From Thermomicrobiales bacterium (GTDB taxonomy: Bacteria > Chloroflexota > Chloroflexia > Thermomicrobiales > UBA6265): a DNA stretch of 64,000 bases. The stretch is from positions 62,001 to 126,000 of the forward strand of contig JAHBVL010000006.1 in assembly GCA_019637585.1 (NCBI GenBank). The letters are read 5' to 3'. Shown piece after piece: positions 50,106 to 64,000 of the stretch. The position numbers were made by a program, and so were the translations under genes. The notes under the pieces were generated by a model. It was not told where the DNA came from. It did not search any database and was given only the letters and a program-made list of their open reading frames with translations. Every line of letters starts with the position of its first letter. Position 1 is the stretch's first letter.

Positions 50106-50330
50106 CATCGTCATCCGGAGCGAAGCGGAGTGGAGGGATCTCTCGTTGGGCGCCGGGAGTCGCTGCGTATGAGCAGGCAGCCGGGCGCGAAGGAGAGATT
50201 CCTCGGCTTCGCTCGGAATGACAGTGGGCGTCGTCGCCCGGCATGATGATGGGACTTCGCTCGGAATGACAATGGCTTCGCTCGGAATGACAGTGGGCTT
50301 CGCCCAGAATAACAGTGGCTTCGCCCCGAG
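50106..50330. repeat. Dispersed repeat with CTTCGCTCGGAATGACA units
   Basis: CTTCGCTCGGAATGACA occurs near 50207, 50256 and 50276, followed by decayed copies (CTTCGCCCAGAATAACA). An opposite-strand partial copy (CATCCGGAGCGAAGCGGAG) lies at about 50115-50133. The pair with GGATCTCTC and GAGAGATTCCTC between forms an inverted structure. Related sequences occur widely in bacterial genomes. It sits between the acidic protein and ppk and may act as a ppk terminator. Confidence 0.75.
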
Positions 50331-52577
50331 CTAGGGAGCGTCCCCGAAGACGCTGCATTTCGCGTAGAGCTTGGCCAGTTCGCGATGGATGTCGCGGCGG
50401 AGTTTTCCTTTACCGCCAGTTTCGACTCTCGTCCAGCAGGCATCCCTGCCGAGGGTCCAGGAATTGACGTTGTCGGCCAGGTACCGGGGCAAGACCTCGG
50501 TACGAAGGTGGTCGCGAATCGCGGGGTCGCCAATCGGGAAAACGACTTCCACCCGGCGGTCGAGATTGCGCTCCATCAGATCGGCACTGCCGAGCAGGAA
50601 CTCAGCTTCGCCGCCATGGGCGAAATGGTAGAGGCGGCTGTGTTCGAGAAACTGGCCGATCAGCGACCGCACCCGGATGTTCTCACTCCAGCCCGGCACA
50701 CCCGGTCTCAGACAGCAGGCTCCCCGCACAACAAGATCGACCTTCACCCCGGCCTGCGAAGCGGCATAGAGCGCGCGGATGAGCTCCTTGTCCACGAGCG
50801 AGTTCATCTTGAAGAAGAGCCACCCGCCGCCCACTTTCTTGTGCGCTTCGATCTCCCGGGCGATCGCCTCGTGGAAGCGTTCGCGCAGGGAATGCGGCGC
50901 CACCCAGAGTGAGCGGAAATCCTCCTGGTCCGAATAACCGGTCAGGACGTTGAAGAGTTCGACGACGTCGTGCGTGATCTCCGGCCGTGAGGTGAAGAAT
51001 CCGATGTCTTCATAGACTTTTGCCGTGGTGGCGTTGTAATTGCCGGTCGATAGGTGAACGTAGCTGCGCAGTCCGTCTTCCTCCCGGCGGACCACCAGCG
51101 TGACCTTGCAATGCGTTTTGAGACCGGCCAGCCCATAGGTCACGTGGACCCCATGGTGCTCCAGCTCCTGTGCCCAGGTGATGTTGTTCTCTTCATCGAA
51201 TCGCGCTTTGAGCTCGAGGAGCACCGCAACCTGCGTGTCGTCATCGCGGGCTTCGATCAGCGACGGGATCAGCGGCGATTCCTGGCCGATCCGGTAGAGC
51301 GTTTGCTTGATGGCCACAACGTCGGCGTCTCGCGATGCGGCGGTGACGAAATCGGTGACGATGTTGAACGACTGGTAGGGATGATGGATCAGGATGTCGC
51401 GCTCACGGATCGTGGCGAAGATATCGCGAGATCCCCAGGCGGTCGTTTCATCGGGATCGGCCGGAGGCGCCGCATCGCCGCGTAGCAGCTTGGCCGGACT
51501 GAACGGCGCATCCTTGAGATCGGGGCGATCGAGACGGTGGAGCTCGCGCACGCCCTCGAGGGCGAGTGGGCCTGGCTGGACATAGAGCTCGCGGTCCGAG
51601 GCGCCGAGCTGGTGGAGGAGCCAGTTCCGGACATCCAGATTCATCGTGTCCGAGACGACCAACCGGACGACTGAGCCGAAGGTGCGCTCCGACAGCATCT
51701 CCCGCATGATCGAGAGAAGGTCATGCGCTTCTTCGTCGTCCTCGTCGATTTCGATGTCGGCGTCGCGCGTGACATGAAACGGATAGGACGCTACCGCTTC
51801 GTTGCCGGGGAAAAGCGCGCCAAGATTGGCTGCAACGAGATCCTCCAGCCAGACGAACGTGACTGTCCGGTCGCCGTGATCCTCAGGGTGATCGACGCGA
51901 ATCAATCGCGGCAGCACCGCCGGGATCTTGATGCGGGCGTAGCGGCTTCCGTCTTTCGATTGCAGCTCGACAAGGAGGTTGAGGCTGTCGTTCGAAATGT
52001 GGGGAAAGCGGCGGGCCCGGTCGATGGCCTGCGGGGTCAGAACGGGAAAGACCTCCCGCATGAAGTACTCAGCCATGACCTGCTGGGTGTCGGGGTCGAG
52101 TGCCGCCACTTCGGTCACCCGGATACCGCGCCGGCGCAGGCGAGGCACGAGCAGGCTGGCAAAGGTTCTAGCCTGTTCGTTGATCTGATGTTGAATCCCG
52201 TCATGAATGGCGGTGTATTGCTGCAGGGGCGTTCGGCCATCGGCGCCAGGATCGGTGATGCCCGCCACAATCTTGCGTTTGACCCCGGCGACGCGAATCA
52301 TCAGGAACTCGTCGAGATTGGAGGCGACGATCGACAGAAACCGGACTCGCTCCAGCAGCGGCACGCTCGACTGCTGCGCGACGGTGAGCACGCGGGCGTT
52401 GAAGTCGAGCCAGCTCAATTCGCGGTTGATGAACAGTTCGGGGAGAAGGGGAGGGAGATCCCGTTCGGGTCGAGCGCCTGAAGTGGCAGGAATGGGATCG
52501 GCGGGAGGAGCGACGACGATGTCGGGTTGGGCGCTTTTGACCTGTTTTTTCGCTTTGCGCTTGTTTCGGCTGACCAT
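50331..52577 (-). CDS. ppk1: Polyphosphate kinase 1
   Basis: A 748-residue PPK1 (EC 2.7.4.1), slightly longer than usual because of a basic N-terminal extension (KRKAKKQVK, then Pro-rich). The N-domain begins FINRELSWLDFNARVL; ILIHHPYQSF carries the phospho-accepting His; LKTHCKVTLVVRRE and STGNYNATTAK form the PLD-like active site; MNSLVDKELIRALYAAS follows. It makes polyphosphate from ATP reversibly. ATG at 52577 follows GGAGTCATCG. It lies 52 bases after a small gene on the same strand. Confidence 0.95.
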   Translation of the reverse strand: MVSRNKRKAKKQVKSAQPDIVVAPPADPIPATSGARPERDLPPLLPELFINRELSWLDFNARVLTVAQQSSVPLLERVRFLSIVASNLDEFLMIRVAGVKRKIVAGITDPGADGRTPLQQYTAIHDGIQHQINEQARTFASLLVPRLRRRGIRVTEVAALDPDTQQVMAEYFMREVFPVLTPQAIDRARRFPHISNDSLNLLVELQSKDGSRYARIKIPAVLPRLIRVDHPEDHGDRTVTFVWLEDLVAANLGALFPGNEAVASYPFHVTRDADIEIDEDDEEAHDLLSIMREMLSERTFGSVVRLVVSDTMNLDVRNWLLHQLGASDRELYVQPGPLALEGVRELHRLDRPDLKDAPFSPAKLLRGDAAPPADPDETTAWGSRDIFATIRERDILIHHPYQSFNIVTDFVTAASRDADVVAIKQTLYRIGQESPLIPSLIEARDDDTQVAVLLELKARFDEENNITWAQELEHHGVHVTYGLAGLKTHCKVTLVVRREEDGLRSYVHLSTGNYNATTAKVYEDIGFFTSRPEITHDVVELFNVLTGYSDQEDFRSLWVAPHSLRERFHEAIAREIEAHKKVGGGWLFFKMNSLVDKELIRALYAASQAGVKVDLVVRGACCLRPGVPGWSENIRVRSLIGQFLEHSRLYHFAHGGEAEFLLGSADLMERNLDRRVEVVFPIGDPAIRDHLRTEVLPRYLADNVNSWTLGRDACWTRVETGGKGKLRRDIHRELAKLYAKCSVFGDAP

Positions 52578-52629
52578 CGATGACTCCGAGCGACTCACGG
52601 TGGTGCGGAGACACTCGCAGAACGGCGGA

Positions 52630-53202: not shown

Positions 53203-54399
53203 ATGAAGGCCCTATTCCGACCAGCCGTTGTTTCCCTCGTGCTGGCGCTGTTGCTTTCGGCGCCATTTGCCATGTCGCAATCGACCGTGGCGCAGGACGA
53301 GGGACCAATTTTGATTGGCGCGCCGGTCAACCTGACCGACTGGATGGCCGCCTACGACGTTCCGCCCCTGGAAGGGGCCAAGCTGGCCGTCAAGCAGATC
53401 AATGCGAATGGCGGAGTGCTTGGCCGTGAGCTGCAGATCATCGAGCTCGACGGCAAAACCGATCCCGCCACGGTCGGCAATGTCGCCCGCGAGCTGATCA
53501 GCCAGGGCGCGGAGATCATTCTGGCGCCGTGCGACTTCGACTACGGCGCGCCGGCCTCCCAGGCAGCGCAGGAAGCCGGATTGGTCGGTATCTCCTTCTG
53601 CGCATCGTCGCCCCTTTTCGGCTCCGCGACGCTGGGAGACAAGCAGTTCACCCTGTCGATGTGGAATCAGACGATGTCCGCCGCTGCTGCGCAGTTCGGT
53701 ATCCAGGAGCAGGGCTGGACCACAGCCGCCACGATCATCGATCAGGCCACTGAGTACACGCAATCGCTCGGCGACTACTTCGTCGAGACCTGGTCGCATC
53801 TCGGTGGTGAGGTTGTCAGCGAGGATACCTATCAGCAGGGCGACATGACCGCGTCTGCCCAGGCGCAGCGGATTCTCGGTCTGGACGAGCAGCCGGACGT
53901 CATTTTCGTTTCGTCCAACATGCCCGACTACGCCGCGATCATCGCGGACCTTCGGTCGGCGGGTATCGAGTCGGCGATCATGGGTGGCGACGCCATGGAC
54001 ACTGAAGAGTTCTATGAAGCGCTTGGCGCCGATCTCGGCAACAACATCTTCATTTCCACTCACTCGTTCATCGGCGCGGAGGCTGGACCCGAGATGGAGC
54101 AGTTCATCGCCGATTTCGAGGCTGAGTATGGGCGGCCACCAGGGGTCAGCTTCGCGGCCATGGGTTGGGACGTGATCCACGTCCTGGCGGCGGCGATCGA
54201 GGCGGCAGGCACCACTGAGGGCGCCGCACTGGCTGCCGCAATGGTCAACACCGAGTTCCCGGGGCTGAGCGGCAACCTGACCTGGTCGGACGCCGAAAGC
54301 GGGCATATTCCGCAGAAAGAGGCGTTCATTCTGGAGATCGTGGATGGCGCTCCCACGTTCGTGATGCGCCTGAAGCCGGAATGGCAGCCGGAAACCTAG
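53203..54399 (+). CDS. Branched-chain-amino-acid-type ABC transporter substrate-binding protein (LivJ/K-like)
   Basis: A 398-residue exported protein. The signal peptide covers about residues 1-30. The mature part opens ILIGAPVNLTD and has AVKQINANGGVLGRELQIIELD, followed by ISQGAEIILAPCDFDYGAPAS, as in peripla_BP_6 (Leu/Ile/Val and amide-binding) proteins. Family members bind diverse amino acids, amides and aromatic acids, so the substrate is open. ATG at 53203 follows GGAGG. First gene of a nine-gene unit; two hairpins follow it. Confidence 0.9.
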   Translation: MKALFRPAVVSLVLALLLSAPFAMSQSTVAQDEGPILIGAPVNLTDWMAAYDVPPLEGAKLAVKQINANGGVLGRELQIIELDGKTDPATVGNVARELISQGAEIILAPCDFDYGAPASQAAQEAGLVGISFCASSPLFGSATLGDKQFTLSMWNQTMSAAAAQFGIQEQGWTTAATIIDQATEYTQSLGDYFVETWSHLGGEVVSEDTYQQGDMTASAQAQRILGLDEQPDVIFVSSNMPDYAAIIADLRSAGIESAIMGGDAMDTEEFYEALGADLGNNIFISTHSFIGAEAGPEMEQFIADFEAEYGRPPGVSFAAMGWDVIHVLAAAIEAAGTTEGAALAAAMVNTEFPGLSGNLTWSDAESGHIPQKEAFILEIVDGAPTFVMRLKPEWQPET

Positions 54400-54407
54400 A
54401 ATCTCGA

Positions 54408-54485
54408 GGAGCGCCTGGCGTTGACCGGGCGCTCCAGCAGTGAATCGATCCCTGGCATCTGGGGCGCCCAGCCGGCGCCCCAGAT
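54408..54485 (+). terminator. Two stem-loops after the binding-protein gene
   Basis: Stem 1: GGAGCGCC (54408-54415) with GGCGCTCC (54428-54435), 12-base loop. Stem 2: ATCTGGGGCGCC (54457-54468) with its perfect 12-bp complement (54474-54485), loop CAGCC. No T-run follows, so partial termination or mRNA protection is likely. Confidence 0.75.
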
Positions 54486-54506
54486 GGTGGAAGCTCAGGT
54501 GCGTTT

Positions 54507-55238
54507 GTGTCGGATAGTCTTCGCGTCGAGTCGCTGACGAAAGATTTCGCCGGATTGCGGGCCGTCGATGGCGTTTCCCTCGGCGTGGAGCAGGGGGAGA
54601 TTCTCGGCTTGATCGGTCCCAACGGCTCGGGCAAGACCACCACAATCAATCTCATCACCGGACTCCTGAACATCACCTCGGGCCGAGTCATGGTTGGCGA
54701 TCAGGACATCACCGGATGGGCTCCACACCGGATCGCCCGGTCCGGGCTGGCCCGGACATTCCAGGTCGTGCGGTTGTTCGAGGAATTCACCGTCCGGGAG
54801 AACGTCGAAGTCGCGGCAATCGCCGCGACGGGCGCGAATCGCTCCGTGGCGCGAGAACAGGCCAACAGAGCGCTCGTCCAGATGAACATCGCGCATCTGG
54901 CCGAAACGCAGGCAAGCGTCTTGCCGCAGGGCGAGGAGCGGATCGTCGAGATCGCCCGGGCTCTGGCCACAAATCCGCGCTTCCTCCTTCTCGACGAACC
55001 GGGCGCCGGACTCAACGACGCCGAGATCGAGCAATTTCTGCCGATGCTTCACCGAATCCGTGAAGAAACAGGGTGCGGCATCCTGATCGTCGATCACGAT
55101 ATGCGTCTGATCATGAATCTCTGCGACCGGTTGCATGTGCTGAACTATGGGCAGACGATCGCAGAAGGGACGCCGGACGAGGTGCGTTCCGATCCTGACG
55201 TGATCGAGGCATACCTGGGCGCCGAGGTGGCCGCATGA
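54507..55238 (+). CDS. ABC transporter ATP-binding protein, LivG type
   Basis: A 243-residue ATPase. Walker A GPNGSGKTTT, signature in LPQGEERIVEIARAL (a degenerate form of LSYGxQR), Walker B FLLLDEPGAGL, and the H-loop VDHDMRLI. GLARTFQVVRLFEEFTV with the long insertion after the Q-loop is typical for LivG. GTG at 54507 is the start. Overlaps LivF by ATGA. Confidence 0.92.
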   Translation: MSDSLRVESLTKDFAGLRAVDGVSLGVEQGEILGLIGPNGSGKTTTINLITGLLNITSGRVMVGDQDITGWAPHRIARSGLARTFQVVRLFEEFTVRENVEVAAIAATGANRSVAREQANRALVQMNIAHLAETQASVLPQGEERIVEIARALATNPRFLLLDEPGAGLNDAEIEQFLPMLHRIREETGCGILIVDHDMRLIMNLCDRLHVLNYGQTIAEGTPDEVRSDPDVIEAYLGAEVAA

Positions 55239-55978
55239 GCCTCCTCGCCATCGACGATATCCACGTGAACTATGGCGCCATCTCGGCCGTGCGCGGCGTG
55301 TCGCTGACCGTCGATCAGGGGGAGGTCGTTGGGCTGATCGGCGTCAATGGCGCCGGAAAGAGCACCACGATGCTCAGCATTGTCGGTGTCGTCAAACCGC
55401 AGCGGGGCACGATCGTCTATTCCGGTCAATCGCTGATTGGCCAATCGCCGGAAACCATCCTCAGACTGGGTATAGCCCCGGTCATGGAGGGGCGCCGCAT
55501 CTTTCCGTCATTGACGGTCGAGGAGAATCTGCGGCTCGGCGCCGCCACGAAGAAAGACAAACAGCAGGTCGAACAGGATATCGATCGCTGGACCACCTTT
55601 TTTCCCATCCTGCGGGAGCGGTTTGGCAAACCGGCAGGAAACCTCTCCGGTGGACAGCAGCAGATGCTGGCGGTGGCCAGAGCGTTGATGTCGCGCCCGA
55701 CCATGCTCCTGATGGACGAACCCTCGCTCGGTCTCTCGCCAAAACTGGTGGGTGACGTGTTCGCACTGATCCGTGAGCTACGCGATATGGGTATGACGAT
55801 CCTGCTCGTCGAGCAGAATGTGCGGATGACGCTGGATATCGTCAACCGGGTCTATCTACTGAACACCGGGCGCGTGGAGTTCGCCGGAACGCCGGACGAG
55901 CTCCGGGCGCGAGGGGATGTCGAACGAGCCTACCTGCATGGTGGTGGTCTCGCTCAGAAATCGGCGTCGCCGGCATGA
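55235..55978 (+). CDS. ABC transporter ATP-binding protein, LivF type
   Basis: A 247-residue ATPase partner: Walker A GVNGAGKSTT, signature LSGGQQQMLAVARAL, Walker B MLLMDEPSLGL and the LivF-specific GIAPVMEGRRIFPSLTV. It acts with the LivG-type subunit to energise import. Its last bases overlap the LivH gene (ATGA). Confidence 0.93.
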   Translation: MSLLAIDDIHVNYGAISAVRGVSLTVDQGEVVGLIGVNGAGKSTTMLSIVGVVKPQRGTIVYSGQSLIGQSPETILRLGIAPVMEGRRIFPSLTVEENLRLGAATKKDKQQVEQDIDRWTTFFPILRERFGKPAGNLSGGQQQMLAVARALMSRPTMLLMDEPSLGLSPKLVGDVFALIRELRDMGMTILLVEQNVRMTLDIVNRVYLLNTGRVEFAGTPDELRARGDVERAYLHGGGLAQKSASPA

Positions 55979-56868
55979 TTACCGACCTGGCGCAATACCT
56001 CGTTTCAGCACTTTCACTGGGAGGGCTCTACGCGCTGATGGCGCTGGGGCTGGTGATCGTCTACGGCATCCTGCGACTGATCAACTTCGCCTATGGCGAG
56101 CTTGTCATGGTCGCCGGATACGGCATGCTGATCATCGGCAGATCCCCCTGGCCATGGATTTTCGTGGCGATCCTGAGCATTCTCTGTGCCGTCATCGCCG
56201 CGCTGGTCATGGAACGGGTGGCATTCCGGCCCGTCAGGAACAGCTCGCCGACGACGATGCTGATCACGTCGTTTGCGGTCAGCACGCTGCTGCAGAACCT
56301 GGCGTTGCTGATCATTTCGCCACGTCCCAAAGTGCCGCGTTTGCCGGCCGTGTTCACCAAGAATCTCCGGTTCGGCGGTGTCCGAATCGACGTGCTCGAC
56401 CTGAGCGGGCTCATTGTCTCCATCGTCGCGCTCCTGGCGTTGACCCTCTTCCTCCGGAAAACGGTGATCGGGCTGGCGTTGCGAGCGGCCGCGGACGACT
56501 TCACCATGACGCGGCTGATGGGTGTGCGAGCCAATATGGTGATCGCCGCGGCGTTTGCCATCAGCGGGTTGATGGCTGGCATCGTGGCTCTCTTCTGGAT
56601 CGGCAACACACGCAGCACGACTCCCACGATCGGCCTGGAGCCGGTCTTGATCGCCTTCATCGCGTCGGTCGTCGGGGGTATGTCCTCGCTGAAGGGGGCG
56701 GTGGTTGGCGGGTATGTGCTCGGATTCCTGACCATCGGACTGCAAACCTGGTTGCCCCGGGATGTGAACGCCTACCGGGACGCGGTGCTCTTCGGCATCG
56801 TGATTCTCGTCCTGCTGGTCCGGCCGGAAGGCATCGTGCGGCCGGTTTGGTCACGGGAGGCGCGCTGA
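55975..56868 (+). CDS. ABC transporter permease, LivH type
   Basis: A 297-residue membrane protein, normal length for LivH, with about eight helices. LGGLYALMALGLVIVYGILRLINFAYGE-like opening (LGGLYALMALGLVIVYG), and AAFAISGLMAGIVAL with the loop RAAADDFTMTRLMGVRANM. Starts at ATG 55975 in the LivF stop. Followed by LivM after three bases. Confidence 0.93.
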   Translation: MITDLAQYLVSALSLGGLYALMALGLVIVYGILRLINFAYGELVMVAGYGMLIIGRSPWPWIFVAILSILCAVIAALVMERVAFRPVRNSSPTTMLITSFAVSTLLQNLALLIISPRPKVPRLPAVFTKNLRFGGVRIDVLDLSGLIVSIVALLALTLFLRKTVIGLALRAAADDFTMTRLMGVRANMVIAAAFAISGLMAGIVALFWIGNTRSTTPTIGLEPVLIAFIASVVGGMSSLKGAVVGGYVLGFLTIGLQTWLPRDVNAYRDAVLFGIVILVLLVRPEGIVRPVWSREAR

Positions 56869-56871
56869 GCG

Positions 56872-57987
56872 GTGACAGACCTGAGATCGCTGGCCAGCCG
56901 GATATCGACCCCTCTCATTCTGAGCGGCATCGTGTCGCTCATCGCCATCATCGCCTGGTTGCGGGGGGATGTGGTGTTCGAGCGGGTGGTGACGGTGATG
57001 TTCATCAACGTCCTGCTCACCGTGGCGCTGCAGGTGTTCATGGGCAATTCGGGTCTCGGTTCGTTTGGCCAGTACGCTTTCGTTCTGATCGGCGCTTATT
57101 CCTCGATCTGGTTTTCGCTCACGCCGGAACAGAAGAACCTGGCGCTTCCGGATATGCCGGAAGAGTGGTGGTTGTACAGCCAGCACTACCCCTTCCAGGT
57201 GGCTGTTGTGCTGGGAGGTGTGACGGCGCTGATCGTCGGTGCGGTCATTGGGATTGCCTTTGTCCGCCTGCGAGGGGCCTCTTTCACCATCGCCACCTTC
57301 GCGTTTCTGATCGTGGTGCACTCGATCGCGCTGCAGTGGCGGGAAGTGACCCGCGGTTCGCGCACGGTGATCGGTATTCCCAAAGAGACGTCGCTCCTGA
57401 TCGCCGCGGTCTGGGCCATTCTGGCTATTCTCATCGGGTACGCCTTCAAGGAGTCGACGATCGGGCTCAAATTGCGCGCTTCGCGCGAGGATGAGGACGC
57501 GGCGTCGAGCATCGGGGTTAATGTCCGGCTGATGCGCTGGATTTCGTGGTGTCTCAGCGTCTTCATGTGTGGTGTGGGCGGAGCGCTCTGGGCTCATTTC
57601 ATCCAGCAGTTCTCCCCCCAGCAGTTCTACCTCTCCGAAACCTTCCTGATCGTGGCGATGCTGGTCATCGGTGGATCGGCAAGCGTCAGTGGCGCCGTGG
57701 TCGGCGCGGTTTCCGTGGCCATGGTGTCGGAAGGGATGCGGCAGTTCGAGAATTCGTGGAATCTGGCTCGCCAGAAAGGAACCAGTATTGGCGACATCCT
57801 GCCATTTCAGCTGGTCGGCTTTACCGAGATCGTGATCGCGCTGGCGATGATCCTGGTTCTGGTGCTGCGGCCGTCTGGCATCATGGGTGGGAGAGAGCTG
57901 GCCTGGCCGCTGCGGCGGCGAGGGTCGCCACCGGCGGCGTCATCCGAATCGGTGGGTATGACCGGAGCGACAGATACGGCTTCGTGA
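56872..57987 (+). CDS. ABC transporter permease, LivM type
   Basis: A 371-residue membrane protein with about ten helices. It has GNSGLGSFGQYAFVLIGAY, the family Gly-rich segment, the loop ASREDEDAASSIGVNVRLM that contacts the ATPase, and LVIGGSASVSGAVVGA. GTG at 56872 follows GGGAGG at longer spacing. With LivH it forms the channel. Last transporter gene before the enzymes, 12 bases from the aminotransferase. Confidence 0.92.
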   Translation: MTDLRSLASRISTPLILSGIVSLIAIIAWLRGDVVFERVVTVMFINVLLTVALQVFMGNSGLGSFGQYAFVLIGAYSSIWFSLTPEQKNLALPDMPEEWWLYSQHYPFQVAVVLGGVTALIVGAVIGIAFVRLRGASFTIATFAFLIVVHSIALQWREVTRGSRTVIGIPKETSLLIAAVWAILAILIGYAFKESTIGLKLRASREDEDAASSIGVNVRLMRWISWCLSVFMCGVGGALWAHFIQQFSPQQFYLSETFLIVAMLVIGGSASVSGAVVGAVSVAMVSEGMRQFENSWNLARQKGTSIGDILPFQLVGFTEIVIALAMILVLVLRPSGIMGGRELAWPLRRRGSPPAASSESVGMTGATDTAS

Positions 57988-57999
57988 AGGAGTCGAGCA

Positions 58000-59343
58000 A
58001 TGACGACATCCACTATGGCGGAATCGATTGCCCAGCGCGACCAGCAGCTGATCGCTGATGCGCTGAAGATCCGGTACACCCCGTTTGTCCATTCCCACGG
58101 CGACGGCGCAAACCTCTTCGACGTCGATGGCAAACGCTATATCGATTTCGGAGGCGCGTGGTCGGCTGCCGGGCTGGGATACAGCAACCAGCGGGTCAAG
58201 GACGCGATCAGCGCGCAACTCGACCGCACGACCTGCAACATCCTGATTTCCGGACTGCACGAACCAGCTGTCGATCTGGCCGAGCGGCTCATCGCGCTGG
58301 CGCCGGGAGACTTCGAGAAAAAGGTCTGGTTTGGTCTTGCCGGGTCGGATGCCAGTGAAGCTGCCCAGCGGATGATCTTGCGAGCTACCGGCAAGCCGCG
58401 CATCGTCTCATTCATCGGCAGCTGGCATGGCACGACGGACGCGGGTATGGCCCTTTCGGCGCACCCCTCACTGCTCAGCGGCGGCGGCGCCCACGTGACC
58501 AAGATCCCCTACCCGAATCCCTATCGCGACCCCTTTGGCGGCGATGGTGAAAACCTCACCGACCGCTGCCTCGACTATCTGGAGAAGTTTCTCTTCACCA
58601 CGATCTGCCCTCCCGATCAGGTGGCGGCGATCTTTGTCGAAGCCGTTCAGGCGGATGGGGGCGACATCGTTCCACCGGACGACTTCCTCCCAAAGCTCCG
58701 GGCGCTATGCGACCGGCACGACATCCTGCTGGTGCTCGACGAGATCAAGGTCGGATTGGGCCGGACCGGCGAGTGGTTCGCGTTTCAGCATGGCGGCATC
58801 GCTGCCGACATGATTCTGCTGGGCAAGTCGCTGGGGGGCGGTCTGCCGCTCAGCGCCATCATCGGCCGCCGGGAGATTCTCGATGTCGCTTCTGGTTTTG
58901 CATTGTTCACCATGGTTGGCAACGCCACGAGCTGTGCCGCGGGTCTGGCGGTGATCGAAGAGATCGAACGGCTCGAGCTCGTCGCGCGGGCAGGCGTCGC
59001 CGGGCAACGGATGCTGCAGGGTCTGACCGATGCGCTGGGCGAGTTCGATTTCGTTGGCGATGTGCGGGGCAAGGGGCTGATCCTGGGCGTCGAACTCGTC
59101 GAGGATCGCGTATCCAAAAAACCCGAGACGACGCTTCCGGCGAAGATCGTTTATCGTGCCTGGCAGAATGGTCTGATCGTGTACTACGCCGGAAACTGGG
59201 GCAACGCGCTCGAGTTCACACCGCCGCTGGTGATTGGCGATGAGCAGATCGATGACGGTATCGACATCCTGCGGCGCTCGTTCGATGATGTGCTGAACGG
59301 CGCTGTCTCGGATGAGGAGATCGCCGCGTTTGCCGGTTGGTAG
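58000..59343 (+). CDS. Class III aminotransferase (PLP)
   Basis: A 447-residue fold-type I PLP enzyme related to 4-aminobutyrate aminotransferase and dialkylglycine decarboxylase. Asp247 in LLVLDEIKVGLGRTGEW binds the pyridine N, and Lys276 in MILLGKSLGGGLPLSAIIG forms the Schiff base. GSDASEAAQRMI and SWHGTTDAGM hold the phosphate region. The usual DEVQTG reads DEIKVG. ATG at 58000 follows AAGGAG. It probably deaminates an omega-amine or amino acid, product of or substrate for the neighbouring enzymes. Confidence 0.92.
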   Translation: MTTSTMAESIAQRDQQLIADALKIRYTPFVHSHGDGANLFDVDGKRYIDFGGAWSAAGLGYSNQRVKDAISAQLDRTTCNILISGLHEPAVDLAERLIALAPGDFEKKVWFGLAGSDASEAAQRMILRATGKPRIVSFIGSWHGTTDAGMALSAHPSLLSGGGAHVTKIPYPNPYRDPFGGDGENLTDRCLDYLEKFLFTTICPPDQVAAIFVEAVQADGGDIVPPDDFLPKLRALCDRHDILLVLDEIKVGLGRTGEWFAFQHGGIAADMILLGKSLGGGLPLSAIIGRREILDVASGFALFTMVGNATSCAAGLAVIEEIERLELVARAGVAGQRMLQGLTDALGEFDFVGDVRGKGLILGVELVEDRVSKKPETTLPAKIVYRAWQNGLIVYYAGNWGNALEFTPPLVIGDEQIDDGIDILRRSFDDVLNGAVSDEEIAAFAGW

Positions 59344-59367
59344 TGAGACGAGGATAGAACGCGCCTG

Positions 59368-60555
59368 ATGACAGCAGACCCGATTGCCGCCTACCTCGAT
59401 TCCCATCTCGATGACTATCTCGATGACCTTCGCGTTCTCTGCGCCATCGATTCCGGCAGCGACGACAAAGCCGGTGTCGATCAGGTGCAGCAATGGCTGG
59501 CGCCGCGATTGACCGGCCTCGGTTTCGCGGTCACGCTGGAAGCGCAGGAGGAGTTCGGGGACGACCTGATCGCGGTGCGCAGTGGATCGGGAAGTCGCCG
59601 GGTCATGCTGCTGGGACACGCCGATACCGTCTATCCCCGCGGCACAGCAGCGCAGCGGCCGGTGACGATCACTGATGACATCGTGCTGGGTCCGGGCACC
59701 TGCGACATGAAAGCTGGTCTATTGGCTGGCATCTACGCGGTGCGTGCGCTCGATGCCGCCGGGTGGAACAACCTCGACCGGCTGACATTTGTCGTCGTTT
59801 CCGATGAGGAGATCAGCCAACGGCACTCGGTTGAGATGCTCAGAGCGCAGGGACCACAGCACGACGCCATTCTGACGCTGGAAGCAGCGCGAGAGAATGG
59901 CGACATCGTCACAGCCCGGAAAGCCGGGTGCTGGCTTTCGGTCAATGTGACCGGCAAAGCGGCTCATGCCGGCGTCGAACCGGAGAAGGGACGCAGCGCT
60001 ACTGTTGCCCTGGGGCACATACTTGCCGAGACATTCAAGCTCAATGGGCTGAAACCGGGAATGACCGTCAATCCGGGAGATATCGCGGGCGGGAGAGCGC
60101 CGAACATCGTTGCCGATTCGGCATTCGGTCACTTCGATCTCCGGGCCTGGACCAATGCCGACCTCGAGGAGTTGCGGCAGGCATTCATCGCGGTCGCGTC
60201 GCGAGAGTATGTGCCCGGTGTTGTTGTGGACATCAGTATGGATGGTGGTTCCGGCATGCCCGCCATGGAGCGAACCGCAGGGGTGGAGCGACTGGAAGCG
60301 GCGGCCATCGATATCGCGGCCGAAATCGGCTTTCCGCTCAAGGGTGCGAGCACCGGTGGCGGTTCGGATATCAGCTACGCCGGCTATTCCGGCACACCCG
60401 GTCTGGATGGTCTCGGGCCAGTCGGCGGTCTCGATCATGGCCCCGAAGAATATATTCTGAAGAGCAGTATTGTGCCGCGCATTGCATTGCTGTCACGTCT
60501 TATCCAGCGCATTGGGGATGATGAAAGGCTTTCCTATGACCAACGACGACCCTAA
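59368..60555 (+). CDS. M20-family metallopeptidase (carboxypeptidase G2-like)
   Basis: A 395-residue dizinc hydrolase. Metal ligands: His84 (LLGHADTVYP), Asp113 (GPGTCDMKAG), Glu147/148 (VVSDEEIS), a Glu in ILTLEAAR, and the final His in GGLDHGPEEY. The dimerisation domain (about 190-310) includes VTGKAAHAGVEPEKG. Members of this group remove glutamate or acyl groups from amide-linked compounds. The start of the ligase gene lies inside its end (20-base overlap). Confidence 0.92.
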   Translation: MTADPIAAYLDSHLDDYLDDLRVLCAIDSGSDDKAGVDQVQQWLAPRLTGLGFAVTLEAQEEFGDDLIAVRSGSGSRRVMLLGHADTVYPRGTAAQRPVTITDDIVLGPGTCDMKAGLLAGIYAVRALDAAGWNNLDRLTFVVVSDEEISQRHSVEMLRAQGPQHDAILTLEAARENGDIVTARKAGCWLSVNVTGKAAHAGVEPEKGRSATVALGHILAETFKLNGLKPGMTVNPGDIAGGRAPNIVADSAFGHFDLRAWTNADLEELRQAFIAVASREYVPGVVVDISMDGGSGMPAMERTAGVERLEAAAIDIAAEIGFPLKGASTGGGSDISYAGYSGTPGLDGLGPVGGLDHGPEEYILKSSIVPRIALLSRLIQRIGDDERLSYDQRRP

Positions 60556-61891
60556 CTCCGCAGATTTGCTCGCGCGATTGACGCGCGACGGCATCGAGCA
60601 CTTCTGGGTGACCTATTACGACTACAGCGGTCTCGGATGTTCCAAATCAGTCCCGCCAGAGGTGTTTCGCGGCACTGTCGAATCGGGTGTTGTGTTCACA
60701 CCGGCGAATCTCGATATGGACATCCTGGACCGTCAGCCCCCGACGGCAACCTGGCTGGCGAACAGCGGCGACTTTCTCGCGCTGCCCGATCCCGCCAGCT
60801 ATACCGTTCTCCCCCGTTTCCCAAGAACCGCAAAGGCCAATGTCTGGATGCGGGCGACCGATGGGGGACTCTGGCAAGGGTGTCCTCGCACCCGACTGCA
60901 GGCCGTGATCGACGATCTCGCATCAGAAGGCTTCGCCGCCAGTTGTGCGTTGGAGCCGGAGTTCTACCTGCTCAACAAGGTCGGAGAGAGCGAGTACGAG
61001 CCGGTGAACGCCGCACGAATGTTCACCCAGGCCGGGTTGCAGCAAGCCCAGCCTTTCGCAACCCGTGTCGTCGATGAGCTGCGCGCGATGGATGTCCCGG
61101 TCGATCAGCTGGGCAAGGAGTATGGTCAGGGTCAGTACGAAATGTCGGTGCACCACGGCACGCCATTGGAAGCGATCGACCGGTATTGGTCGCTCAAGGA
61201 TGCGGTCACCGACATCGCCCGCGAATGCGGCTACATCGCGACGTTCATGCCCAAGGTTTACGCCAATTGGGCCGGCAACAGCCTCCACGTGCACATGAGC
61301 CTGAGTGATCTGGAGGGCAAGGGCAACGTCATGGAGTCGGCCGAAGATGAGACGTCGCTTTCCCAGACGGGGCTCTGGTTCCTGGGCGGACTGCTGACGC
61401 ACGCACCCGCGCTGACCGGGCTTGGATCACCAACGGTGAATAGCTACAAACGGCTTCTGCCTGGTTCATGGGCGCCGGCCAACGTCTATTGGGGCTATGG
61501 CAATCGATCGGGCGTGGCTCGGGTGCCGGGTGTTGGCTCACGACGCCATATCGAGTACCGCTCCGGGGACAATAGTTGCCAACCAGCCCTTTTCCTGGCC
61601 GGGCTCCTGGCCGCCGGTCTCGATGGGATTCGACGGCAAATCGATCCCGGTCCGCCCTATCAGGGGGACGTCGGGCGCCTGACGGTTGACGAAATGGCGG
61701 AGCTGGGGCTGACATTTCTGCCGCGGACGCTTCGCGATGCTCTCGATGCGCTGGAATCGGATGAAGTGGTCGCGGCCGCAGTTGGTGACGAAATCCTGCC
61801 GCACCTGTTGTCGATCAAGAGAAGTGAGATGGAAGCGTACGAGCTCACCGTCCATCCCTGGGAACGCACAACCTATCTGGAGGTCATCTAA
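60536..61891 (+). CDS. Glutamine-synthetase-like ligase (gamma-glutamyl-amide synthetase type)
   Basis: A 451-residue GS-fold enzyme. Metal and substrate residues are seen in CALEPEFYLL (Glu140, Glu142), GQGQYEMSVHH (Glu202), NSLHVHMSLSD (His251, His253) and RRHIEYRSGDNS. The sequence is closer to PuuA/IpuC/GlnT-like enzymes that join glutamate to amines than to GlnA; no adenylylation Tyr motif is evident. ATG at 60536 follows AAAGG. Position between an M20 hydrolase and FluG-like amidohydrolase favours amine glutamylation. Confidence 0.9.
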   Translation: MTNDDPNSADLLARLTRDGIEHFWVTYYDYSGLGCSKSVPPEVFRGTVESGVVFTPANLDMDILDRQPPTATWLANSGDFLALPDPASYTVLPRFPRTAKANVWMRATDGGLWQGCPRTRLQAVIDDLASEGFAASCALEPEFYLLNKVGESEYEPVNAARMFTQAGLQQAQPFATRVVDELRAMDVPVDQLGKEYGQGQYEMSVHHGTPLEAIDRYWSLKDAVTDIARECGYIATFMPKVYANWAGNSLHVHMSLSDLEGKGNVMESAEDETSLSQTGLWFLGGLLTHAPALTGLGSPTVNSYKRLLPGSWAPANVYWGYGNRSGVARVPGVGSRRHIEYRSGDNSCQPALFLAGLLAAGLDGIRRQIDPGPPYQGDVGRLTVDEMAELGLTFLPRTLRDALDALESDEVVAAAVGDEILPHLLSIKRSEMEAYELTVHPWERTTYLEVI

Positions 61892-61893
61892 CC

Positions 61894-63072
61894 GTGGTCG
61901 ATGTCAGTCAGCTTCCCGTCGTCGACATCCATGCTCATCCGTTCCTCAATCCGGGTCCCCTGACACCCGAGCAGTTCGTGGACCTGACCGCCTTTGGCGG
62001 CGGTTCGCCCGAGTACATGGAACAGGGGGGTGTCGACGTCACCAGCGAGGTCGTGGAGGAGCTGCAGCGGGTCAAACGCGAAACGGTCTACTTCAAGCGG
62101 CTGGTGCTGGATCTGGCGGCGTTTTTCGACGTCGAACCGACGGTGGAAGCGGTGGTCGGCGCGCGCAACGCCGCGATCGAGTCTGGCTACACCGACTATG
62201 TCCGGCGGCTATACGCGGACGCGGGCATCACCTCGATTGTGTTCGATTTCGGCATTCCTCTGCCGATTCTCGATATCGGTGAAGTGAGCGGCCAGCTTCC
62301 GATCGACGTTGTGCCGATCTACCGGATCGAGCCGCTGATTGCCGATCTTCTCAAAACCGACCTGGGCTGGGACGAGTTCTCGCGGGCGTATGACGATGCC
62401 ATCAGCGACGCGTTGACCAACGACGGATACCGGGGGGTAAAGTCGATCATCGCGTACCGGACCGGGCTGGATGTGTCGCCACTCTCCCGCACGAAGGATC
62501 AGGGATTGCTGGCGCTCGATGCGATTCGTCGTGGCCTGGGTGGCGGCAGTATGAAGAAACTGCGGGATCACCTGATCTGCCGGGCGATGGAGCTCTGCAT
62601 GGATCACGATGTGCCCATGCAGATTCACACCGGCATGGGCGATTTCGAAGTCAATCTGGTGATGTGCCGGCCCTCGTACCTGATGGACCTGCTCCGTTTT
62701 CCGACCTTCCGCGGCTGCCGGGTCATTCTGGTGCACACCGGTTATCCCTACCACCGCGAGGCGGCCTACATCGCCAACGTGTTGCCGCGGGTCTATGTCG
62801 AAGTCAGCGAGGGCATCCCGTTTGCCAGTACCGCGGCATGGGACATCTACGATGGCGTTCTGGCCATGGCCCCGGTGAACAAGATCTGCTACGGCTCAGA
62901 CGGCTACAAAACGCCTGAGATCATCTACTCCAGCGCCAAGCTGGGCAAGCAGGCACTGGCCGACACGCTGAACCTGCACGTCGAACGCCGCATGATGACC
63001 GCACCCGACGCCCAGTCCGCCGCCGCCGCAATTCTCGCGGGTAATAGTTCGGAGCTTTACCGGATTGGGTGA
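61894..63072 (+). CDS. FluG-like amidohydrolase (amidohydrolase_2)
   Basis: A 392-residue TIM-barrel metal-dependent hydrolase with H13-A-H15 in VVDIHAHPFL, His in MQIHTGMGD and VILVHTGYPY, and Asp in ICYGSDGYKTPEI. It resembles the N-terminal half of fungal FluG, in which an amidohydrolase is fused to a GS-like domain; here the two are separate neighbours two bases apart. Likely releases glutamate or ammonia from an amide. GTG start at 61894. Last gene of the operon. Confidence 0.88.
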   Translation: MVDVSQLPVVDIHAHPFLNPGPLTPEQFVDLTAFGGGSPEYMEQGGVDVTSEVVEELQRVKRETVYFKRLVLDLAAFFDVEPTVEAVVGARNAAIESGYTDYVRRLYADAGITSIVFDFGIPLPILDIGEVSGQLPIDVVPIYRIEPLIADLLKTDLGWDEFSRAYDDAISDALTNDGYRGVKSIIAYRTGLDVSPLSRTKDQGLLALDAIRRGLGGGSMKKLRDHLICRAMELCMDHDVPMQIHTGMGDFEVNLVMCRPSYLMDLLRFPTFRGCRVILVHTGYPYHREAAYIANVLPRVYVEVSEGIPFASTAAWDIYDGVLAMAPVNKICYGSDGYKTPEIIYSSAKLGKQALADTLNLHVERRMMTAPDAQSAAAAILAGNSSELYRIG

Positions 63073-63099: not shown

Positions 63100-63759
63100 T
63101 CAGTCCTCGCGCAGGTTCCGGGCGCTTTCGATCATGAGGTTCAGGGTGGCCAGCAGATCGCGGATGCTGCGGTCGTCGAGGACATAGAGCGCCAGGCCCG
63201 TTTCGGCTTCGTTGAACTCGACGAATTCCCCTGCCTGGGGATTCTTGCCCTGGGCGATGCTGTCGGCGCGCAGAGCCGCGAGCCACGCGCCCGCCAGTTT
63301 GTTGGCTTCGGCCAGCGCTTCGATGAGCTTCGATGCGGCTTCAGACCGTTCTGTACCATCCTCGTCAGCCAGAGGACGATACTCTCCCTCGCCGGTCAGA
63401 CTGCGATGCGCGGCGGGAGTGGTGGCCAAAATAAAGGCTTCGCCTTCGGCGACGGCGTGGGCCAGAATGCGGGGGCCGGGTGAGTCGATCATCGCCGACC
63501 GTTCCAGCGTTTTCAGATCGGCATCGAAAAGCGTCTTGCCGGTGCGACCGTCGGCGCCGGCGATTTCGAGGAGATAGTGGTAGATCATGAAGGGCGCGAC
63601 GCCAACGCTCGATTCCAGCTCGATCGTCCAGATCCCGGCATTGTCGTCCTGCTTGAACGGACTCAATTCTTCGGCCAGCTCGGTGGAGACGTCCTCCAGA
63701 GAGAGAGCCTGCCGGAGGAACTCGGAGAGACGCAACTTGACATCGACTTGTTCTGACAC
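63100..63759 (-). CDS. Hypothetical protein, alpha/beta
   Basis: A 219-residue soluble protein starting VSEQVDVKLRLSEFL (GTG at 63759). Sequence has helix LAEELSPFKQDD, strands GIWTIELESSVGVAPFMIYHY and IVxx-like EGEFVEFNEAETGLALYVLDD, and a Leu-rich helical end. No family is recognised. The longer frame to 63933 overlaps the divergent cytidine deaminase and is rejected. No operon partner. Confidence 0.6.
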   Translation of the reverse strand: MSEQVDVKLRLSEFLRQALSLEDVSTELAEELSPFKQDDNAGIWTIELESSVGVAPFMIYHYLLEIAGADGRTGKTLFDADLKTLERSAMIDSPGPRILAHAVAEGEAFILATTPAAHRSLTGEGEYRPLADEDGTERSEAASKLIEALAEANKLAGAWLAALRADSIAQGKNPQAGEFVEFNEAETGLALYVLDDRSIRDLLATLNLMIESARNLRED

Positions 63760-63843
63760 AGACTTCGCACTTCCCGATCGCGACCAAATGCCGGACGCCA
63801 ACCGTAACACTTGAGAATGGACCGCGCACAGGAGAATCGAGCA

Positions 63844-64000
63844 ATGGGCGACACGATCAGTATGGAACAGGCAGCACTCCTGATGGAGGCAGCGCGCGCG
63901 GCGGCGAATCACGCCTACGTGCCCTATTCCCATTTTCCAGTGGGAGCGGCGCTGCTCACGATGGATGACTCGATCATCACCGGCGCGAATGTCGAAAACG
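63844..64000 (+). CDS. cdd: Cytidine deaminase (partial, 5' end)
   Basis: The first 52 residues of a cytidine deaminase (EC 3.5.4.5): YVPYSHFPVGAALLT and GANVEN are hallmarks of the tetrameric form; the zinc-binding HAE/PCxxC parts lie outside the window. ATG at 63844 has GGAG ten bases upstream. It salvages cytidine to uridine. Confidence 0.92.
   Translation, partial: MGDTISMEQAALLMEAARAAANHAYVPYSHFPVGAALLTMDDSIITGANVEN

Follow-up and report, generated by a model that had tools for sequence, protein, structure and literature searches.

What does a bacterium take up and degrade with an operon that joins a Liv-type importer to an apparent aminotransferase, an M20 hydrolase, a glutamine synthetase (GS)-like ligase and a FluG-like amidohydrolase? 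The question is raised by positions 53203-63072 of the window, i.e. the whole 64,000-nucleotide stretch of Thermomicrobiales DNA analysed here (contig JAHBVL010000006.1), which an earlier note, written from the DNA letters, had read as a nine-gene operon of this composition. The open reading frames, the matches to family profiles and a gene order conserved in other genomes bear out that reading, since nine genes of the families named lie on the same (+) strand. The answer that we favour, with a probability of roughly 40%, is that the operon imports and dismantles an α-amino compound in which an amide or lactam masks the carboxyl group, by way of five steps set out below. Its basis is the enzyme annotated as a class-III aminotransferase, which, as judged from its sequence, belongs to the clade of α-amino-ε-caprolactam (ACL) racemase and amino-acid-amide racemase. 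The genes, with the one larger spacer between them, are the following.

53203-54399, + strand: periplasmic or extracellular binding protein of a Liv (HAAT) importer (PF13458, 157.9 bits; aligned with LivJ/LivK and five operon orthologues; PDB matches)
54400-54506, + strand: intergenic stretch with two strong stem-loops between the binding-protein and LivG genes (fold -59.6 kcal/mol, z -3.6)
54507-55238, + strand: LivG-type ATP-binding protein, GTG start (PRK11300, 229.6 bits, below the cut-off of 362; PF00005, PF12399)
55235-55978, + strand: LivF-type ATP-binding protein (PRK11614, 213.6 bits, below the cut-off of 441; PF00005)
55975-56868, + strand: LivH-type permease (PRK10740, 140.2 bits; PF02653)
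56872-57987, + strand: LivM-type permease, GTG start (PF02653, 112.8 bits)
58000-59343, + strand: fold-type I pyridoxal 5'-phosphate (PLP) enzyme of the ACL racemase / amino-acid-amide racemase clade, annotated as class-III aminotransferase (ACL racemase, 386 bits; tree clade; residues)
59368-60555, + strand: M20 metallo-amidase of the carboxypeptidase G2 subfamily (PRK06133, 278.5 bits, cut-off 349; alignment with carboxypeptidase G2)
60536-61891, + strand: GS-like ligase, predicted γ-glutamyl ligase, alternative starts at 60518 and 60521 (PF00120, 315.7 bits; flap PGSWAP; outside GlnA)
61894-63072, + strand: FluG-N-type amidohydrolase, GTG start (PF04909; orthologue alignment; best fold match 2qpx, TM 0.80)

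The name aminotransferase given to the PLP enzyme in the earlier note turns out to be that of its Pfam superfamily only. Among solved structures, its closest relatives are ACL racemase (ACLR, 386 bits) and amino-acid-amide racemase (350), followed by an Ala/Ser racemase (313) and a broad amino-acid racemase (295), with γ-aminobutyrate aminotransferase (GabT, 243) and dialkylglycine decarboxylase (222) ranking lower. In a maximum-likelihood tree of 37 sequences (IQ-TREE), it falls with the ACLRs of A. obae and R. freirei into a clade of 25 members supported at 100/100, outside of which stand GabT, PuuE and seven other Chloroflexota class-III enzymes. Its full-length identity with A. obae ACLR is 45%, and the two enzymes share the pattern of the substrate pocket. 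Indeed, every operon copy shares with the A. obae and R. freirei enzymes a Trp at GabT I50, an Asp at E211 and a Lys at Q242, the I50 position being unreadable in the Sulfitobacter copy, which is annotated without its N-terminus. The same copies have no Arg at GabT R141 (T, A or S in the operon copies), a Glu at R398 and a C-terminal GW. In GabT, R398 and R141 are the arginines that hold the substrate carboxylates. Asp238, at the pyridine nitrogen, and the PLP-lysine are conserved in every operon copy. Both the missing substrate arginines and the tree position rule out a PuuE or GabT type enzyme; the transaminase step that the earlier note had implied is not supported, and there is therefore no reason to expect an oxidase or aldehyde dehydrogenase, whose absence that note had correctly remarked in the window operon and which is also missing from the full operons L039, L063 and L068-L070. 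ACLR itself (PDB 2zuk, 3dxv and 5m46) racemises both ACL and amino acid amides (PMC7431475), and racemase activity is predicted for the window enzyme as well.

With the enzyme placed in the racemase clade, an α-amino compound with a masked carboxyl becomes a likelier substrate than a simple amine. In the pathway that we propose, the Liv importer would take up the masked-carboxyl compound (step 1) and the ACLR-type enzyme would interconvert its D and L forms (step 2). The GS-like ligase, spending ATP, would then join the γ-carboxyl of glutamate to the substrate amine (step 3), the FluG-type amidohydrolase would open the amide or lactam (step 4), and the M20 hydrolase would split the resulting γ-glutamyl amino acid into glutamate and amino acid (step 5). 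We infer the substrate class, the order of steps 3 to 5 and the assignment of the hydrolases to their steps. Besides the PLP enzyme, two other proteins have lost carboxylate-binding residues, which fits a masked carboxyl. In the binding protein, the carboxylate-site segment LCSSS of LivJ is replaced by a CDFD-type segment (PCDFD) that is kept in all six operon sequences aligned. In the M20 enzyme, the Arg that precedes PAF in carboxypeptidase G2 (CPG2) is absent from the aligned position in nine of nine operon copies; by chain count, we take this residue to be Arg324. CPG2 Arg324 has been equated with the PepV residue that binds the substrate C-terminus (PMC6271292). The losses in the three proteins, each a weak pointer on its own, would point away from a free α-carboxylate. 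The candidate substrates considered are the lactams of lysine and ornithine, the amides of amino acids, homoserine lactone and D-isoglutamine.

The ligase that would perform the third step scores 321 bits against the γ-glutamylputrescine synthetase model (GGputSyn, NF045547; cut-off 650) and 276 bits against GlnA (cut-off 429). In every operon copy, the flap Glu327 of GlnA (PGYEAP) is replaced by Trp (PGSWAP), whereas the glutamate-site segments around the flap are kept; in GlnA, this Glu is the ammonium-binding residue. The alignment thus shows glutamate- and metal-binding residues retained and the ammonium-binding Glu lost. The genome carries separate true GlnA genes, which the tree splits from the window ligase at 100/100 (the GS protein of L131 was dropped from the analysis). 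The sub-cut-off score, the flap Trp and the tree position together exclude a true GlnA, in line with the γ-glutamylation likeness seen earlier, and a γ-glutamyl ligase is predicted. Two GS-like subfamilies partner the PLP clade, one comprising ligases of the window type and the other the rhizobial, Meiothermus and Haladaptatus proteins. Contig C23 of the same genome carries another gene of the GS family as well as a gene for a PuuB-like oxidase (L084, L141), ~36 kb apart and unlinked to the operon.

By sequence, both hydrolases have intact metal sites. The only sequence match of the amidohydrolase among solved structures is 2qpx (LSEI_0440), which is also the best match of its AlphaFold2 model (mean pLDDT 82; TM 0.80), ahead of 4i6v and uronate isomerases. 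In Aspergillus, LSEI_0440, for which no reaction is known, can take the place of the N-terminal FluG half (PMC6478659), so that the analogy drawn earlier between the two separate genes and the halves of FluG stands. An HxH motif (13/15), Lys183, His245, His281 and Asp336 do not vary across 12 orthologues, a pattern that we read as that of a two-metal hydrolase. The M20 enzyme aligns with CPG2, metal ligands included. As for the division of labour, the PF05013 protein SCO1615 has been proposed as a γ-glutamylglycine hydrolase in the ethanolamine route of S. coelicolor (PMC9397018), which makes PF05013 and M20 enzymes the likelier ones for the final step; FluG-type and isochorismatase-type enzymes would consequently open the amide or lactam. 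In most clusters, the ligase comes with two hydrolases, whose families vary with the phylum: FluG-type and M20 in Chloroflexota, isochorismatase-type and PF05013 in Proteobacteria. Meiothermus combines a FluG-type gene and a PF05013 gene, annotated as N-formylglutamate amidohydrolase (FGase), with the ligase, and no PLP gene is listed there within about 8 kb (17 kb shown); no FGase gene was found in the genome of the window. An AibH-like monooxygenase was also considered for the amidohydrolase and set aside, no AibH-type entry being present among the 50 fold matches listed.

The grouping of these genes is not due to chance, as indicated by its conservation. Close orthologues of the amidohydrolase (62-71% identity) occur in 12 other genomes, 158 genomes of the class having been searched, and their surroundings were inspected together with 18 named loci from a GTDB-wide scan. 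All nine genes are found in the same order in G114 (L039), Sphaerobacter sp. HOG56 (G112; L040/L063) and B3_Chlor (L068), and eight of them, without the M20 gene, in two Ardenticatenia (L069, L070), with protein identities to the window of about 42-68%. In a Thermomicrobiales metagenome-assembled genome (L041/L072), the PLP, M20, ligase and amidohydrolase genes follow a different Liv importer (33-52% identical), and the enzyme block therefore moves as a unit. The four enzyme genes, whose dispersal would have undone the idea of a common pathway, are thus kept together in a common order in other Chloroflexota. The relatives bear the names Thermomicrobiales, Sphaerobacter, Ardenticatenia and, once, Rubrobacteraceae; most are metagenome-assembled genomes, and many contigs end within the cluster.

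Racemases of this clade keep similar company elsewhere. Plasmids were searched with the window PLP enzyme and ten neighbourhoods were opened, family assignments being checked on examples. Each contains a GS-like ligase, a PF05013 protein (FGase) and one or two isochorismatase-family hydrolases, in place of the FluG-type and M20 partners of the window. A MurR/RpiR regulator is present in nine of the ten (unlisted in L091, whose gene table is incomplete), and the importer is of the Liv type in nine, with an APC permease in Klebsiella. The Liv-bearing clusters come from Shinella, Sinorhizobium, Rhizobium, Ensifer, Maritalea, Sulfitobacter and NT-25. Notably for ACLR itself, the Achromobacter obae enzyme is 84% identical to the copy of Shinella zoogloeoides, whose gene sits by GS-like, FGase-type, isochorismatase-type and Liv genes. 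Haladaptatus halobius matches the parts list partly: its ACLR-clade gene has genes of the GS-like, FluG-type, M20 and DUF6885 kinds in the vicinity. Among 400 Chloroflexota genomes picked irrespective of neighbours, a GS-like gene lies within 10 kb of seven of seven ACLR-clade genes versus none of seven other class-III genes (Fisher p = 0.0006, with small counts and relatedness uncorrected), one of the seven positives (G328:C44) relying on a partial GS gene ~8 kb off. The Klebsiella block has the same parts minus Liv, spans 6.7 kb and was matched on 48 plasmids, 46 of them from Klebsiella; a search for its transfer to E. coli gave no match among 5,426 genomes of that species.

L094, Klebsiella quasipneumoniae plasmid pTMSNI47-2, 2594-9296: GS-like, APC permease, ACLR-clade PLP, RpiR, PF05013 and isochorismatase block

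Parts of the operon recall known systems. With E. coli Puu (PuuABCDE), it shares a γ-glutamyl-type GS-like ligase and a class-III PLP gene, but it lacks PuuB, PuuC and PuuD, its PLP enzyme is not of the PuuE type, its importer is Liv instead of PuuP and its ligase is only 28% identical to PuuA. The pairing of a GSI-like ligase with a FluG-N/LSEI_0440-type amidohydrolase is found in Aspergillus FluG and in GlnA3-SCO6961 of S. coelicolor; unlike FluG, the two are encoded by separate genes here, as in Streptomyces, and unlike both systems a racemase-type PLP enzyme, an M20 hydrolase and a Liv importer are added. The M20 enzyme belongs to the CPG2 subfamily PRK06133 but scores under the curated cut-off. 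The ethanolamine route of S. coelicolor (GlnA4, SCO1611-SCO1615) also proceeds by γ-glutamylation and then hydrolysis of a γ-glutamyl amino acid, whereas dehydrogenases are absent here, M20 replaces PF05013 and a racemase is present.

Several observations weigh against the proposed pathway. At the position of ACLR Tyr137, the window, L039, L063 and L072 enzymes have a Trp, which is aromatic too, while Tyr is kept in the other clade members checked; roles have been described for ACLR D238 and Y137, the latter stacking on the pyridine ring of the cofactor (PMC6424897). In the M20 enzyme, an invariant Arg follows closely on PAM and could stand in for R324. M20, ligase and amidohydrolase genes, or the last two, occur without an adjacent PLP gene in L033, L034 and L045-L048, and the Ardenticatenia operons lack the M20 gene, which indicates that not every step is obligatory. 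By family model, the closest tested ligase is the haloarchaeal GlnA-2 of H. mediterranei, with measured glutamate-putrescine ligase activity (PMC8394153), and the Haladaptatus ligase passes that model. Finally, polyamines induce both GlnA3 of S. coelicolor and SCO6961, the amidohydrolase encoded next to it (PMC5403932). The last two points would suit a classical amine γ-glutamylation of the Puu or GlnA3/GlnA4 type, in which the ligase glutamylates an amine, the PLP enzyme transaminates its free end, an unlinked aldehyde dehydrogenase oxidises the product and the amidohydrolase or the M20 enzyme frees glutamate. γ-Glutamylputrescine synthetase is also the best family match of the ligase, SCO6961 was proposed as a hydrolase, and a PuuB-like gene exists in the genome. 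That gene is on another contig, however, and the conserved operon has neither oxidase nor aldehyde dehydrogenase, a PLP enzyme of the racemase clade without substrate arginines and an importer of the Liv, not Pot, type, all of which make an amine route unlikely in our view.

The same parts might also act in another order, with M20 first cleaving an N-acyl or peptide-like conjugate after its import, the racemase acting on the freed amide and the FluG-type enzyme serving as terminal γ-glutamyl hydrolase, the role proposed for SCO6961 (PMC5403932). M20 is dispensable in Ardenticatenia (L069, L070), and the M20-ligase-amidohydrolase cluster L057 adjoins an apparent peptide-type binding protein (identified by eye). 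Nevertheless, the FGase and FluG-type enzymes found with the Meiothermus ligase would be redundant if both removed γ-glutamate, and we consider this order rather improbable. A role of the PLP enzyme in racemising amino acids in their free form, like the related Ala/Ser, Leu/Met and Ile racemases, with the operon scavenging D-amino acids via γ-glutamyl derivatives, is very unlikely. The Ala/Ser and broad racemases are sister families in the PDB (313 and 295 bits), Liv importers carry amino acids, and cluster L132 includes an Ala_racemase_N/D-Ser dehydratase-type gene, but the closest characterised enzymes are amide and lactam racemases and the canonical LivJ carboxylate-site Ser is replaced in the binding protein.

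If masked-carboxyl amino acids are indeed the substrates, the clusters may represent a widespread route for amides and lactams in Chloroflexota, Proteobacteria and haloarchaea, in which ACL racemase would be a native step and γ-glutamate a handle that is later taken off, while the same two cleavages would be made by either of two unrelated hydrolase pairs, FluG-type with M20 or isochorismatase-type with PF05013. We hold this extension tentatively, at somewhat less than even odds. Lysine and amino-acid-amide processes have made use of ACL racemase, an industrial enzyme, since the 1970s. In the literature searched, we found no description of its physiological role and no paper linking it to such a gene cluster, and searches by gene combination returned nothing specific, which agrees with the earlier view of an undescribed system. 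The operon gives the racemase partners and a testable pathway for its natural role, with Shinella and Sinorhizobium as genetically accessible settings for racemase and ligase. It also offers a defined pathway in which the target of the FluG-type amidohydrolase could be learned, an enzyme that makes up one half of a developmental regulator of fungi and has no known substrate. Besides, the annotation 'aspartate aminotransferase family' is carried by many proteins that are probably racemases.

Other genes accompany these clusters. DUF6885 (PF21819) adjoins the GS-like gene in ACLR-clade clusters of Chloroflexota (L131:8752-9720) and haloarchaea (L056:13569-14504) and is possibly a third alternative hydrolase. 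The dehydratase-type gene of L132 (5135-6238) lies inside its ACLR-clade cluster, hinting at D-configured substrates. In Deinococcus aetherius (L075:5331-10113), GS-like and FluG-type genes occur with an acetamidase/formamidase and an APC permease.

The operon has clear boundaries, as the upstream gene (50331-52598, ppk1-like by reading) and the downstream open reading frame (63100-63933) are both on the other strand. From LivG onward, the genes are spaced by about -38 to +24 bp, so that the small or overlapping gaps noted earlier have a single exception, the 107 bp that follow the binding-protein gene. The two hairpins in this gap are very stable, no shuffled sequence folding as well. Stem-loops between binding-protein and transporter genes are the usual arrangement when the binding protein is made in excess over the transporter. 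Farther upstream, where the ppk1-like gene has its 3' end, a 29-nt repeat (GGCTTCGCTCGGAATGACAGTGG...) is present in four near-copies at 50205-50324, with an inverted partner at 50110-50130, and is possibly an extragenic palindromic element.

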